From contig NZ_CP116902.1 in the NCBI RefSeq assembly GCF_028471905.1, positions 1,090,501 to 1,154,500 of the forward strand: DNA of 64,000 nt. The letters run 5' to 3'. Every line of letters begins with the position of its first letter. Within the stretch, counting starts at the first letter, position 1. Positions 37,962 to 44,061 of the stretch are shown piece by piece. Position numbers and translations under genes: made by a program. The notes under the pieces are model-generated. The model was not told where the DNA came from and made no database searches. It saw only the letters and a program-made list of their open reading frames with translations. This stretch comes from Aneurinibacillus uraniidurans. GTDB taxonomy: Bacteria > Bacillota > Bacilli > Aneurinibacillales > Aneurinibacillaceae.

Positions 37962-40529
37962 ATGGAGGCAGTAACTGAATCACAAGGAAAAATGAGGCTT
38001 GAAGGTTTAAGCGAGAAAATTTTCCTTGATCGGTATGCTCTGAAAGATACAGATCCAGACCACATTCAGGAAGGCGATACGGTTCTTGTTCTAACGCATG
38101 ACGATCCGAAGTTTCCGAAGAAAGAAGTCGGGATTGTAACAAAACGGACAGGTAGTGAGCTCGAGGTTGAGCTGCGGAACGGTGAGATGGTGACATCGAA
38201 TGCCGATAAAGCACTCCGCACGCTAGAACAAACACCGGAAGAGATGTGGGATCGCCTGGCAAAAACGATTGCATCAGTAGAGACAACACCTGAGAAGCAG
38301 CAGGAATGGCAGGAGAAATTCCGTAGTCTATTGGATGACTGGAAGCTTGTGCCGGGCGGACGGATTGCAGCTGGAGCGGGTGCCAATGATGAATTGACAC
38401 TGTATAACTGCTATGTAATCCCTTCTCCGCATGACAGCCGGGGCGGCATTATGGAAACGCTCGGTCAAATGACAGAGATCATGTCCCGAGGCGGTGGGGT
38501 TGGAATCAACCTTTCAAGTCTTCGCCCGCGCCGTGCGCAAGTAAAAGGCGTGAACGGATCGTCAAGTGGTTCGGTGTCATGGGGTGGACTGTTTAGTCAT
38601 ACGACCGGATTAATTGAGCAAGGTGGGAGCCGCAGGGGAGCATTGATGCTAATTATGAACGACTGGCACCCTGACCTGCTGGAGTTCATTACCGTTAAAC
38701 AAAACATGGGCATGATTACAAATGCCAACCTGTCAGTAGCAATAAGTAATGGTTTTATGAAGGCTGTAAAAGAAGACCTGGAATGGGAACTGAAATTCCC
38801 GGATACGACAGACCCGGAATACGACGAAGTATGGGATGGAAACCTGGATAAATGGCTGTCACTCGGTAAAGAAGTGCGCGTATACAAAACGGTTCGCGCG
38901 CGCGATGTGTGGCACATGATTATTGAATCGGCATGGAAGTCTGCTGAACCAGGTATCGTATTCATGGAATACTACAACCAGATGTCGAACAGCTGGTATT
39001 TCAACCCGATTATTTGTACGAATCCGTGTGGGGAGCAAGGTTTGCCAGGATGGGGCGTATGCAACCTTTCTGCTATTAATCTATCAAAATTCGCTAAAGA
39101 TGGCGAAGTTGATTGGGACAGCCTATCTACAGCAGTTCGTTATTCCGTTCGCTTCCTCGATAACGTGGTCGATGCAACACCGTATCATTTCGAAGAAAAC
39201 AAAGCGAATCAGAAAAACGAACGTCGCGTAGGTCTTGGTACGATGGGCCTTGCAGAAATGATGATTCACCTGAAAATCCGCTACGGCAGCCCGGAATCGC
39301 TTGAATTCCTGGACAAGCTGTATGCGTTCATCGCTCGTGAATCATATCTGGCATCGTCTGAAATTGCCGCAGAAAAAGGCAGCTTCCCGGCGTTTATCGC
39401 AGATAAATTCCTGGAGAGCGGCTTCATGAAGCAGTTCGATGACGAGCTGCGTGAAACGATTCGTGAAAACGGTATGCGCAACGTAACTGTTCTGACACAG
39501 GCTCCTACTGGGTCCACAGGAACCATGGTTGGAACAAGTACCGGAATTGAGCCTTTCTATGCATTCGAATACTTCCGTCAAAGTCGCCTCGGCTTCGACA
39601 AACAGTACGTGCCAATCGCGAAACAATGGGTGGAAGAGAACGATTCCGAAACGCTGCCAGATTATTTCGTAAGCGCAATGGATCTGTCCGCAGAAGACCA
39701 CGTGCGCGTACAAGGTGCGATTCAGAAATGGGTGGACAGTTCCATCAGTAAAACGGCAAACGCTCCGGCTGATTTCACAGTTGAAGAAACAAAAGCGCTG
39801 TACGAACTCGCCTTTGACCTTGGCTGCAAAGGGGTTACCATTTACCGTGATGGCAGCCGCGATGTACAAGTTCTGACAACGAAAAAAGACGAGAAAGACA
39901 GCAAGAAAGAACCGGAAAAAGCCGAAAAAATCGCGCAATCAACCGACCTTGATGAAGCAGCACCAACGAAAGACTACCGTCGTCGCCCACTTCGCCTCAA
40001 AGGTGCTACATACAAAATGAAAACACCACTTGGCAAAGCGTACATTACGGTGAATGAAGCAGATGGTGCTCCATTTGAAGTAATTGTAAACGTCGGAAAA
40101 GCAGGTAGTGACGTATTTGCGATGTCTGAAGCGCTGGGTCGTGTATCGACACTGTTCCTCCGCTTCGGTCAACTGCCAGACGGAAATAAAGCTCGCCTGT
40201 TGATTAAGCATCTCAAAGGCATCGGTGGATCAGGTGCAGTCGGCTTCGGCGCTAACCGTGTCGATTCGATTCCAGATGCGGTAGCGAAAGCGATTGAATT
40301 CTACCTTGATGGGGAAGATGACAGCGCACCGGTTGCTTCAGCAAGCGAAGTAGCTTATGCAGATATGACGGCGGCTTCAGCAACGGATACACACAAGCAC
40401 GACCGTGATGAAGATGGCGATGTGTATCGGGAAGGACTTGATCTGTGTCCGGAATGCGGTGCGGCAGCCCTTGTTGCGGAAGAAGGCTGCAAGCATTGTG
40501 AGGCATGTGGATATTCACGTTGTTCATAA
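37962..40529 (+). CDS. nrdJ: Adenosylcobalamin-dependent ribonucleotide reductase (class II)
   Basis: This 855-residue enzyme reduces ribonucleotides to deoxyribonucleotides using adenosylcobalamin as radical source, without oxygen. It carries NCYVIPSPHDSRGGIMETLGQM, GGVGINLSSLRPR, NPCGEQGLPGWGVCNLSAINLS (active-site Cys region, written here as NPCGEQ and GVCNLSAINL) and APTGSTGTMVGTSTGIEP. A C-terminal zinc or redox tail (CPECGAAALVAEEGCKHC, then CGYSRCS) follows. GGAGGGTGAAAA precedes ATG 37962. Two NrdR-like boxes lie in its promoter. No cobalamin riboswitch was seen. Confidence 0.93.
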   Translation: MEAVTESQGKMRLEGLSEKIFLDRYALKDTDPDHIQEGDTVLVLTHDDPKFPKKEVGIVTKRTGSELEVELRNGEMVTSNADKALRTLEQTPEEMWDRLAKTIASVETTPEKQQEWQEKFRSLLDDWKLVPGGRIAAGAGANDELTLYNCYVIPSPHDSRGGIMETLGQMTEIMSRGGGVGINLSSLRPRRAQVKGVNGSSSGSVSWGGLFSHTTGLIEQGGSRRGALMLIMNDWHPDLLEFITVKQNMGMITNANLSVAISNGFMKAVKEDLEWELKFPDTTDPEYDEVWDGNLDKWLSLGKEVRVYKTVRARDVWHMIIESAWKSAEPGIVFMEYYNQMSNSWYFNPIICTNPCGEQGLPGWGVCNLSAINLSKFAKDGEVDWDSLSTAVRYSVRFLDNVVDATPYHFEENKANQKNERRVGLGTMGLAEMMIHLKIRYGSPESLEFLDKLYAFIARESYLASSEIAAEKGSFPAFIADKFLESGFMKQFDDELRETIRENGMRNVTVLTQAPTGSTGTMVGTSTGIEPFYAFEYFRQSRLGFDKQYVPIAKQWVEENDSETLPDYFVSAMDLSAEDHVRVQGAIQKWVDSSISKTANAPADFTVEETKALYELAFDLGCKGVTIYRDGSRDVQVLTTKKDEKDSKKEPEKAEKIAQSTDLDEAAPTKDYRRRPLRLKGATYKMKTPLGKAYITVNEADGAPFEVIVNVGKAGSDVFAMSEALGRVSTLFLRFGQLPDGNKARLLIKHLKGIGGSGAVGFGANRVDSIPDAVAKAIEFYLDGEDDSAPVASASEVAYADMTAASATDTHKHDRDEDGDVYREGLDLCPECGAAALVAEEGCKHCEACGYSRCS

Positions 40530-40591
40530 GATGAGTTTTCTATAAATAGCTGGATTTTCTGTGATTTTTCACTATTGATGAATAATTATAC

Positions 40592-40626
40592 AAAAAGGTG
40601 AAGACAAACATGTCTTCACCTTTTTG
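40592..40626 (+). terminator. Terminator after nrdJ
   Basis: AAAAAGGTGAAGACA pairs with TGTCTTCACCTTTTT (40611-40625), a long perfect stem. The rest of 40627-40930 is AT-rich with no supportable gene. Confidence 0.9.
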
Positions 40627-40939
40627 CAGGAATTTAAAAACTCACATAAAAAAGCAGAAACGTTATTTTAGAGTTTAATAATTGAGAGATTCTATGATAG
40701 GTTTATAACTAAATTTGCTTTTTATAGATACACAACCAAGATTTATCCTTTGTGCATAAAAGGGTATAGGATTATTCTATATTTATAAGGATTTAGCGAA
40801 GAAAAGATAATCCGTTATCAAATCTGTCATTTAAGAAACCTCTCTATTTATTACTCGTCTTATCTAATGTTGTTGATTCTTTTAAAATAGTAAAAAATAT
40901 TTTCAATCTATAAATAATAATGATACACTATGATAGGAT

Positions 40940-40945
40940 TATAAT
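40940..40945 (+). promoter_or_regulatory. -10 box of the mqo promoter
   Basis: A perfect TATAAT puts the likely transcript start near 40952, exactly where the structured leader begins. The -35 region is not clear. Confidence 0.5.
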
Positions 40946-40951
40946 CGATAC

Positions 40952-41021
40952 AGAAAAGATGTGTGATTAGGTCGTGCCTGGCTTGCTATAGCGTCTAAGA
41001 AGGAGCGCCTACATCTTTTCT
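40952..41021 (+). ncRNA. Structured 5' leader of mqo
   Basis: AGAAAAGATGT (40952-40962) pairs exactly with ACATCTTTTCT (41011-41021). The stem continues after a five-base bulge, with TAGGT pairing to GCCTA next to the right arm. The enclosed about 35 bases can form smaller helices. The leader ends 28 bases before the mqo start and has no T run, so it is not a terminator. It matches no riboswitch class I know; it could be a cis-regulatory RNA or a protein-binding site. Confidence 0.5.
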
Positions 41022-41049
41022 GCAAATCTTAGATAAAAGGACGATAAAA

Positions 41050-42549
41050 ATGAGCAACCATACTAAAACAGACGTTATCTTAATTGGTGCCGGAATCATG
41101 AGTGCCACTTTGGGGACACTTCTGAAAGAATTAGTACCGGACTGGGACATTACAGTGTTTGAGAAGCTCGCAAACACGGGCGAGGAAAGCTCTAACGAAT
41201 GGAATAATGCAGGAACGGGGCATGCGGCACTGTGCGAGCTTAACTACACCGTCGAAAAACCGGACGGATCGATAGATATTAGTAAAGCGATAAAAATCAA
41301 TGAACAGTTCCAGACTTCAACGCAGTTTTGGTCTTATCTTGTAAAGCACAATCTGATACGTAATCCGCAGGACTTTATCAGGGCATTGCCTCATATGAGT
41401 TTCGTACAAGGGGAACAAAATGTAACGTTTTTAAAGAAACGTTTTGAAGCGCTGTCTAACAATCCTCTATTCCAAGGGATGGAATTTTCTGATGACCCGG
41501 GAAAACTGATGGAATGGATTCCGCTTATTATGAAAGACCGGACATCGAATGAACCTATAGCAGCAACAAAAATCGACTCTGGAACGGATGTCAACTTTGG
41601 CGCTTTAACACGCATGTTGTTTGACAACTTAAAGAGTAAAAACGTCGATGTAAAATTCAAACATAGTGTTGATAATATTAAACGTACGAGCGACGGCTCA
41701 TGGGAATTGAAAGTGCGGAATGTCGATAGCGGTACCGTCGAACGCCATACTGCAAAATTCGTCTTTATCGGTGGCGGGGGAGGAAGCCTGCATTTACTGC
41801 AAAAATCCGGTATTCCTGAAGGGAAACATATCGGAGGATTCCCGGTAAGTGGACTATTTATGGTGTGTAATAACCCAGATGTTGTAGAGCAGCATCATGC
41901 AAAAGTATACGGAAAAGCTAAGGTTGGGGCTCCTCCAATGTCTGTTCCGCATCTTGACACAAGATTTATCGATAATAAGAAATCGTTGCTATTTGGACCG
42001 TTTGCTGGCTTCTCACCAAAGTTTTTAAAATCCGGTTCAATGTTCGATTTGTTAACTTCCGTAAAAACGGATAATCTCGTAACTATGTTGGCGGCAGGCG
42101 CAAAAAATGTTCCATTGACAAAATACCTGATCGAGCAAGTTATGTTATCGAAAGAACAGCGCATGGAAGAATTACGGGAGTTTATCCCAAGCGCTAAAAG
42201 CGAGGATTGGGGTATGGTAGTAGCGGGTCAACGTGTACAAGTTATTAAAGATACTGCAGCCGGCAAAGGAACGCTTCAATTTGGTACGGAAGTTGTTAGT
42301 GCCGCTGATGGCTCAATAGCAGCATTGCTTGGCGCTTCTCCGGGTGCTTCTACTGCCGTTCACGTTATGCTTGAGGTAATAAAAAAATGCTTCCCGCAAC
42401 ATCTACAAGAATGGGAATCGAAAATAAAAGAAATGATTCCTTCTTATGGTGTGTCACTACTGGAAAATCCAGAGCTTATCGATGAAATTCATACTTCAAC
42501 AGCGCAAACACTTGGCTTAGAGGATAAAAAACAGTACGCGTACGTATAA
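41050..42549 (+). CDS. mqo: Malate:quinone oxidoreductase
   Basis: This 499-residue membrane-associated FAD enzyme oxidises malate to oxaloacetate and reduces quinone in the TCA cycle. The FAD-binding motif is [18 protein letters not shown], and [19 protein letters not shown] is the Mqo signature; [19 protein letters not shown] lies mid-protein. Length is normal for the family. AAAGGACG precedes ATG 41050. It is monocistronic with its own terminator. It would use malate made by the fumarase at 3.4 kb. Confidence 0.93.
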
Positions 42550-43014: not shown

Positions 43015-44061
43015 TTGTATAAACCACCTGTAAAACAGCCGGTTGAACAAGAGCCACAAACTACAAAGAAAAGAGTTACCCGAAAAAAGCCAAAGAAAAA
43101 GTTCAGAAGAAGGGTGTTTTTCCTTTTTCTTGGATTATGTTATATATATGTTTCTACCGCTTTATTTGTTTTTAAGGGACCCTATCAAAATGTGAAAGAT
43201 TACGCACTTCAATCGCTGGGGACTACACAGCATCCGAATCTTTGGATCTCTCTTTTTTCACTAAATACCGTTTCTGCGGCAGAAATTGCGAAGTATACGG
43301 TTGGAACTGGACAGCCTACTGTGGACAGCAGCGGGAATGCAACTGGATTTGGTGATTTTGGAGGCATTAAGGACAGCTCGATCCAAATTGAGGATTACAA
43401 AGATAATACGTACTCCGCAAAGATTATGCTTGTTCGTGATCCGATGCGCCTCAAAGTTGCCGTTACCAATCAAATAGGTAAGGTTGGCCAAACAGTAAGT
43501 GAAATGGTGCGTGATAACAATGCGGTAGCTGGCGTGAACGGTGGGTCGTTTCAGGATGTTGGCTGGCATGGAACCGGGGGAGATCCGCTCGGGACAACCA
43601 TGCATGATGGAAAATATTATGCCACTAGTGAAAACAGCAATGTGATTGGGATCACCTCAAGTGGTTCTTTGATTTCAGGAAAATATTCAGTGAAAGAACT
43701 GCAGGATATGGGAGTGAAGGAAGCTCTCTCATTTGGACCGATTCTTGTGAAAGACGGGCAAGGACTGGTTCGTGGCAATGGTGGCTGGGGGAATGCTCCC
43801 CGTACGGCAATTGGTCAGAAGGCCGACGGTACGATCATTCTTATTGTTACAGACGGTCGCTTTGTTCATGGACCTGAGAATCTCGGGGCAACCTTGCATG
43901 ACATACAGGATCTTATGTTGAAATACGGAGCTGTCACCGCAGTTAATCTGGACGGCGGTTCTTCTACTACGATGGTGTATAATGGGAAGCTGGTAAATGA
44001 ACCAAGTGATGTACTTGGAGAAAGAAAAATCGCGACTTCATTTATCGTTATGCCGGAATAG
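43015..44061 (+). CDS. Phosphodiester glycosidase (NAGPA-domain) protein
   Basis: This 348-residue protein has a basic, Pro-rich cytoplasmic N-terminus (about 1-38), one membrane anchor (about 39-57, VFFLFLGLCYIYVSTALFVF), and an extracellular NAGPA domain. Its motifs are NAVAGVNGGSFQD, RTAIGQKADGTIILIVTDGR and VNLDGGSSTTMVYNGKLVN. Such domains cleave sugar-phosphodiester bonds in exopolysaccharide or wall polymers. The start is a TTG at 43015 behind AAGGAGAG. The gene at 44073 follows after 11 bases and is probably its partner. Confidence 0.85.
   Translation: MYKPPVKQPVEQEPQTTKKRVTRKKPKKKFRRRVFFLFLGLCYIYVSTALFVFKGPYQNVKDYALQSLGTTQHPNLWISLFSLNTVSAAEIAKYTVGTGQPTVDSSGNATGFGDFGGIKDSSIQIEDYKDNTYSAKIMLVRDPMRLKVAVTNQIGKVGQTVSEMVRDNNAVAGVNGGSFQDVGWHGTGGDPLGTTMHDGKYYATSENSNVIGITSSGSLISGKYSVKELQDMGVKEALSFGPILVKDGQGLVRGNGGWGNAPRTAIGQKADGTIILIVTDGRFVHGPENLGATLHDIQDLMLKYGAVTAVNLDGGSSTTMVYNGKLVNEPSDVLGERKIATSFIVMPE

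Follow-up and report, generated by a model that had tools for sequence, protein, structure and literature searches.

Directly upstream of mqo in Aneurinibacillus uraniidurans, a long inverted repeat lies between the putative promoter and the start codon, which raises the question of whether the mRNA of this gene begins with a functional RNA structure and, if so, what this structure does. The window, i.e., the whole stretch of DNA analyzed here, comprises 64,000 nucleotides of contig NZ_CP116902.1, and the promoter box, the parts of the leader and mqo, as mapped below, lie on its forward (+) strand.

The mqo Locus and Its Leader

The gene at 41050..42549 encodes a 499-aa malate:quinone oxidoreductase, as indicated by the NCBIfam models NF003604 (955.5 bits, cut-off 737) and TIGR01320 (730.2 bits, cut-off 549.95). 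Mqo is a quinone-linked alternative to NAD-dependent malate dehydrogenase. The upstream neighbor of mqo encodes a B12-dependent ribonucleotide reductase, and the position of mqo suggests that it has a promoter of its own, with a putative -10 box TATAAT at 40940..40945. Judging by this box, the leader presumably starts at the transcription start, and its location suggests that it controls mqo. The next sizeable open reading frame 3' of mqo (43015-44061) had no NCBIfam match.

The first-pass annotation had described an exact 11-bp outer stem. It is indeed exact, and one pair longer: a perfect 12-bp inverted repeat (40951-40962 / 41011-41022) encloses an interior of 48 nt, begins 5 nt past TATAAT and ends 27 nt short of the mqo ATG at 41050, close to the 28 bases given before. 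The 5' arm of this stem, named P1 (40951..40962; CAGAAAAGATGT in the window, consensus CAGAAAAGGUGU), resembles a Shine-Dalgarno (SD) sequence, with per-column identity of 0.76-0.97 in 33 divergent long leaders. The 3' arm (41011..41022; ACATCTTTTCTG in the window) consists of the pyrimidine tract ACAUCYUUUCUG, whose complement is found in the 5' arm and, in part, in the SD. A predicted 6-nt 5' bulge (40963-40968) separates P1 from P2, an imperfect inner hairpin (40969..41010; AGG-u-CGU-CCU / AGG-a-GCG-CCU) with a variable apical loop. The first-pass annotation had given five pairs past the bulge, whereas the predicted fold has nine (AGG/CCU, a bulged U, CGU/GCG, a G.A mismatch and CCU/AGG), capped by an apical hairpin of three pairs. 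At the foot of P1 lies the conserved, single-stranded CAAAU (41023..41027; columns 74-78, identity 0.82-1.00 in the 33 divergent long leaders), followed by the SD core AAGGA of mqo (41037..41041), where AAGGANGG is conserved across long leaders.

Taken alone, the predicted fold of the window is only moderately unusual: the minimum free energy of 40952-41021 is -21.5 kcal/mol, which 11 of 200 dinucleotide shuffles equaled or bettered (z -1.75). Exact 12-bp inverted repeats with loops of 4-60 nt are more numerous in the window (8 distinct) than in 40 dinucleotide shuffles (mean 0.225), which makes a chance origin unlikely, yet is no proof of function; conservation is the stronger evidence. In agreement with the first-pass annotation, no T run follows the stem. 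A scan of 40400-41200 found a single terminator-like site at 40589-40628, 3' of the upstream gene and called on the minus strand, and none in the leader, which accordingly lacks the makeup of a transcription attenuator.

The earlier remark that the leader resembles no riboswitch family familiar to that reader also held, as no Rfam 15 family matched the window at its gathering threshold (the best permissive match was SSRC34, 18.7 bits against a threshold of 64). Among 20 loci with divergent leaders, four Rfam matches were obtained at E <= 0.5, all to miRNA families, below threshold and away from the leader. Titles and abstract openings among the literature matches listed, with subscription journals outside this search, mentioned no mqo leader RNA, and the exact-phrase match concerned Plasmodium. 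We file the leader as a new, uncatalogued family of cis-acting leader RNA in Bacilli, of a kind that is itself known.

Two further elements were noted in the promoter region. The palindrome ATAGTGATACACTAT overlaps the likely mqo -35 region in other Aneurinibacillus, several Paenibacillus and Brevibacillus (twice in loci L103 and L192), and the window carries an imperfect form of it, ATAATGATACACTAT, at 40917-40931. Its role as a regulon operator was rejected, since the window's own genome contains three one-mismatch places against two for the reversed control, i.e., no regulon signal. In L053, L056, L062 and other Bacillaceae loci, the mqo promoter is repeatedly preceded by a long block rich in A+T (like TTATAATTATCATATAATAGTAGATATTTTAATCTATAAATAATTG), part of which seems to resemble a PerR/Fur-type box.

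Distribution and Association with mqo

When 61 genomes were searched at the DNA level, 16 of them other than the window's own contained the leader, with 76-89% identity (E <= 2e-8). Out of 349 mqo loci in named genomes, the best 80 were retained; these came from Aneurinibacillus, Paenibacillus, Cohnella, Brevibacillus, Domibacillus, Peribacillus, Cytobacillus, Metabacillus, Shimazuella and other genera. In 73 of these 80 loci the 5' arm lies within four mismatches of the consensus (the match in L091 was judged spurious by eye); as for the remaining seven, the leader is diverged in L060 and L067, lost in L050 and rearranged in L076, L096 and L107, and no start codon was found in L043.

A covariance model built from 60 leaders, with ten candidates scored per class genome, gave 110 matches in 109 of 398 Bacilli genomes; an mqo-family gene is present in 274 of them. 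At the level of the order, 14 of 15 genomes (150 candidates scored) had one match each, except G010 with two, and this set overlaps that of the class. Among 299 genomes sampled from the phylum, four were matched, all of them Bacilli already contained in the class set. Every one of the 109 matches checked lies directly upstream of mqo (94 were read with the downstream mqo sequence, as 97 loci with three repeats, and 15 were placed by coordinates; the match in G374 was left out). Moreover, we read 40 mqo upstream regions not matched in the class search (38 from genomes without a match, plus the second copies L225 and L238): many show the same layout in diverged form and others have lost it. As 25 of the 40 reach the model at E <= 0.01 when searched alone, 109 of 398 is a lower bound. 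The leader is conserved, precedes mqo in every match checked and retains a long 5'-terminal hairpin formed by P1 and P2.

Altogether, 220 upstream regions were collected, including repeats of the same place, which left 202 distinct ones. Both arm motifs occur in 140 of these, the 3' motif only in 25, the 5' motif only in 13 and neither in 24 (background in mononucleotide shuffles: 0.066 for the 5' and 0.016 for the 3' motif). For arm statistics, 29 of the 220 regions lacking one of the two anchors were excluded, leaving 191 (166 distinct), and in 122 of the 166 distinct leaders the gap between the -10 box and the stem is exactly 5 nt. The two arms are less than 10 nt apart in L192 and L227, and up to about 50 nt apart in other leaders. 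After loss of the interior, a short 5' hairpin with similar arms is left in L192, L227 and L255, and the 3' arm is lost in L074, L086 and L108. Lineages differ in the apical region (columns 29-45, identity 0.33 to 0.88 in the 33 divergent long leaders), which is shortened or deleted in a number of leaders, and no conserved multi-helix pocket was seen in the leaders.

Several single loci are worth recording. A deletion inside the apical hairpin of the leader sets apart the two Brevibacillus panacihumi genomes represented by L103 and L110, and shortened interiors occur also in L065 and L192. In L219 the leader is lost and an arm-like ACAGAAAAGG stands at the expected place of the SD. The second mqo locus of G010 (L143) has a leader in front of an mqo remnant matching residues 1-25 and then 307-498, and the same genome has a full-length mqo copy with a leader (L126). 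Among second mqo copies, L225 of G014 keeps the 3' part of the leader only, and none is visible in L238 of G012; another mqo copy in each of these genomes does carry the leader. Finally, L071 lies on a contig labelled as a Planctomycetes metagenome-assembled genome with a typical Bacilli mqo (86% protein identity) and leader; this label probably reflects contamination or mislabelling.

Comparative Support for the Hairpin

The fold supported by comparison is one long imperfect hairpin made of P1, the 6-nt 5' bulge and P2 (AGG-u-CGC-G.A-CCU...). Some comparisons took subsets of the loci (100 and 53 sources, and 75 for the scoring of two models). In two structure-fitted alignments, A3 (101 rows) and A4 (51 distinct rows), changes on both sides occur in 20 of the 24 pairs of P1 and P2, and none of 500 shuffles reached any of five measures. 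Sliding the partner by 1-3 columns lowered pairing from 87.6% to 44-53% in A3 and from 78.8% to 40-53% in A4, and all six slid controls were lower in both percentage paired and covariation score. In the close set A2 (60 leaders chosen from 81, i.e., the window and the 80 loci) there was little covariation, and shuffles reached the percentage paired in 25, the number of double-change pairs in 157 and the covariation score in 40 of 500 cases.

Because structure-fitted alignments lean towards the structure, tests not fitted to it were added, using a MAFFT alignment of 108 long leaders, an Mqo protein tree (which 144 of 145 translated Mqo proteins entered) and substitution rates matched by column. 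The predicted value for P1 was 0.189 against 0.110 in the rate-matched tree null (1 of 60 nulls as high) and that for P2 was 0.235 against 0.119 (0 of 60), and these were the only two of four helices to exceed the tree-based null. Event counts, made for seven helices and uncorrected for that number, agree modestly with this result: the pair-keeping ratio was reached by the rate-matched null in 2 of 200 cases for P1 and 6 of 200 for P2, and double changes in 19 and 8 of 200, respectively. The arms of P1 also pair better with their own partner than with that of other species (0 of 2000 permutations; 1 of 5000 with 65 divergent representatives), and P2 shows compensatory changes in L200, L193, L158, L119, L137, L182, L073, L080 and others. 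We gave little weight to a plain own-versus-cross permutation, as it was positive alike for P2, the alternative hairpin H3, the pairing of the SD with the 3' arm and a pseudoknot, and unclear for P1 (44/400).

No single pair covaried significantly under the tree-based null, with the best E of 0.57 in 144 anchored leaders and 2.0 in the 108 long ones; for P1, this is probably because the arms hardly vary. The structured leader that the first-pass annotation had seen in front of mqo is supported by the matches in other Bacilli and by P1 and P2 exceeding both shuffles and the tree-based null. The stem is conserved; a lack of conservation in relatives had been named as one half of what would count against that reading.

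Three other pairings were rejected under the rate-matched null. The pseudoknot CCUAAG / CUUAGG, whose changes seemed compensatory between the window and the genus, showed no excess (102/200 for both double changes and pair-keeping); it exceeds the plain permutation, as related sequences can without structure. The strand-swap hairpin H2 (GUCGCGC with downstream UGUGAC; 27/200) and a loop helix AGGUGU/ACGCCU (37/200) were unsupported. A leader peptide read by eye (UUG-GCU...UAA) was dropped as well, since interior length and sequence differ between lineages.

A Candidate Alternative Fold

The 5' arm is SD-like and the 3' arm complementary to the SD, so a second fold, mutually exclusive with the hairpin described above, can be drawn. 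Here a candidate hairpin H3 (GUGUGAC-UAG-GUCGCGC; GUGUGAU-UAG-GUCGUGC at 40961..40977 in the window) would be incompatible with P2 and use up the end of P1, and the 3' arm would pair with the SD. The evidence for this fold is divided. Compared with the rate-matched null, double changes in H3 (9 against a null mean of 4.26; 4/200) and the pair-keeping ratio of the pairing between the SD and the 3' arm (2/200) stand out, whereas the pair-keeping ratio of H3 (42/200) and double changes in the SD pairing (105/200) were not unusual. Neither helix exceeded the thermodynamic null built on the tree, which equaled or surpassed the observed value in 24 and 26 of 60 cases, respectively, and the energies of the SD pairing showed no within-species gain over cross-species pairing.

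A model of H3 with the SD pairing outscored that of P1 with P2 in 53 of 75 loci, none identical to any training sequence, a comparison confounded by internal deletions, which penalize the model of P1 and P2 more. In 109 of 162 leaders, the predicted energies of the two folds differ by no more than 3 kcal/mol, a count made without a null. The C commonly present in the 3' arm disrupts a pair of P1 and suits the SD: in the 108 long leaders, its pair is canonical in 0.31 of cases with P1 against 0.91 with the SD. The SD itself is not paired more than after shuffling that leaves the SD intact (0.571 against 0.541, p 0.30; 61 representatives), and is paired less than when the 3' arm alone is shuffled (0.571 against 0.636, p 0.024).

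In the window species, P1 has a mean predicted pairing of 0.97, and the open fold (P1 and P2) is predicted to lie about 7 kcal/mol below the closed one, whose SD pairing, read from the sequence, would be weak (five pairs, CUUUU/AAAAG). The window is atypical in this respect, since P1 is the dominant predicted structure in no more than 33 of 165 leaders.

Proposed Mechanism and Alternatives

These data are best explained by a new, mqo-specific 5' leader RNA of Bacilli, for which we tentatively infer, as the best single mechanism, that it acts as a two-state translational leader. In the open state, the SD-like 5' arm would hold the 3' arm in P1, leaving the ribosome-binding site accessible. When closed, the leader would instead fold its 5' arm and a strand of P2 into H3, and the freed pyrimidine 3' arm would pair with the Shine-Dalgarno sequence AAGGAUG, lowering translation of mqo. 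Some trigger, which may be a metabolite, a protein, a small RNA or temperature, would set the balance. Given the predicted advantage of the open fold, any switch in the window species would be strongly biased to that state, and the leader would be mostly on. Some translational riboswitches mask the SD. The mqo leader is like them on paper in having two exclusive folds, with the SD freed or paired, and differs in that no conserved ligand pocket was seen in it and that its closed state is only partly supported.

The main rival is a constitutive 5'-terminal stem-loop that stabilizes the mqo mRNA without any switching, hindering decay from the 5' end, with ribosome binding downstream adding protection. 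There is a precedent: the Bacillus subtilis aprE leader is described as stabilizing its mRNA via a 5'-end stem-loop (PMC11805744), and a review, which cites the aprE work, describes stabilization of mRNA by 5' secondary structures in E. coli (PMC3997798). The aprE leader as described there is likewise short, with a 5'-terminal stem-loop followed by the SD (PMC11805744); the mqo leader stands apart in that both arms are conserved in sequence over many genera, one of them being complementary to the SD. A plain stabilizer would fit the stem standing at a fixed 5 nt from the -10 box, the short 5' hairpin persisting after loss of the interior, the tree-based null being exceeded by P1 and P2 alone of four helices, and an SD that is not unusually hidden. 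It fits less well with P1 being predicted to dominate in a fifth of leaders only (33/165), with an arm sequence conservation exceeding the need of a plain stem, and with the restriction to one gene, which it leaves unexplained; on balance, we regard it as possible but rather unlikely.

A riboswitch proper, thrown by a small molecule bound in the region of P2 (perhaps malate, oxaloacetate, a quinone, a flavin or some other metabolite of central metabolism), would agree with the tie to one metabolic gene, the sequence conservation of the long form and the possibility of alternative folds. We rank it low and think it improbable, because the partial-arm and short forms fit a ligand pocket poorly, the apical columns 29-45 being variable or deleted and a conserved multi-helix pocket not being seen. 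Ldh_2 enzymes form a family other than Mqo. The ldh2 motif (SRC-18-2) is another orphan structured RNA before malate/L-lactate dehydrogenase genes, and differs in being described as a three-stem junction found in Negativicutes before Ldh_2 genes (PMC8632094).

It is quite improbable that the leader serves mainly as a docking site for a factor acting in trans, be it CsrA or another RNA-binding protein, or a small RNA of the iron-sparing FsrA/IsrR type that pairs with G-rich sequence preceding the SD. In favor of this reading, long leaders show good conservation of AGGG and AAGGANGG, and the SD of many mqo leaders seems to resemble the CsrA consensus. IsrR sites were also predicted for Mqo of Staphylococcus aureus, whose lower level missed that paper's significance criterion (PMC11257911). 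Against it, the conserved P1 stem would be superfluous for this purpose, and many short forms carry AAAAGGUU, without GGA. That the repeat acts at the level of DNA, as a protein operator or a relic, we hold to be most improbable. Conservation of the arms as sequence and the lack of significant single-pair covariation would be expected of it, but arm spacing is not fixed, spanning less than 10 nt to about 50 nt, and compensatory changes occur in separate lineages.

Returning to the two-state leader, its boldest form would be a gene-exclusive RNA switch, present through a large part of the Bacilli and acting as a sensor of TCA-cycle or respiratory-chain state, in which a 5' SD mimic restrains an anti-SD strand and so sets the amount of the membrane malate oxidase; this must be considered speculative and somewhat doubtful. 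To our knowledge, the choice between Mqo and NAD-dependent malate dehydrogenase in Bacilli has received little attention. A leader RNA found so widely in front of mqo would offer a direct way into this choice, and the leader RNAs known from Gram-positive bacteria would gain an uncatalogued family.
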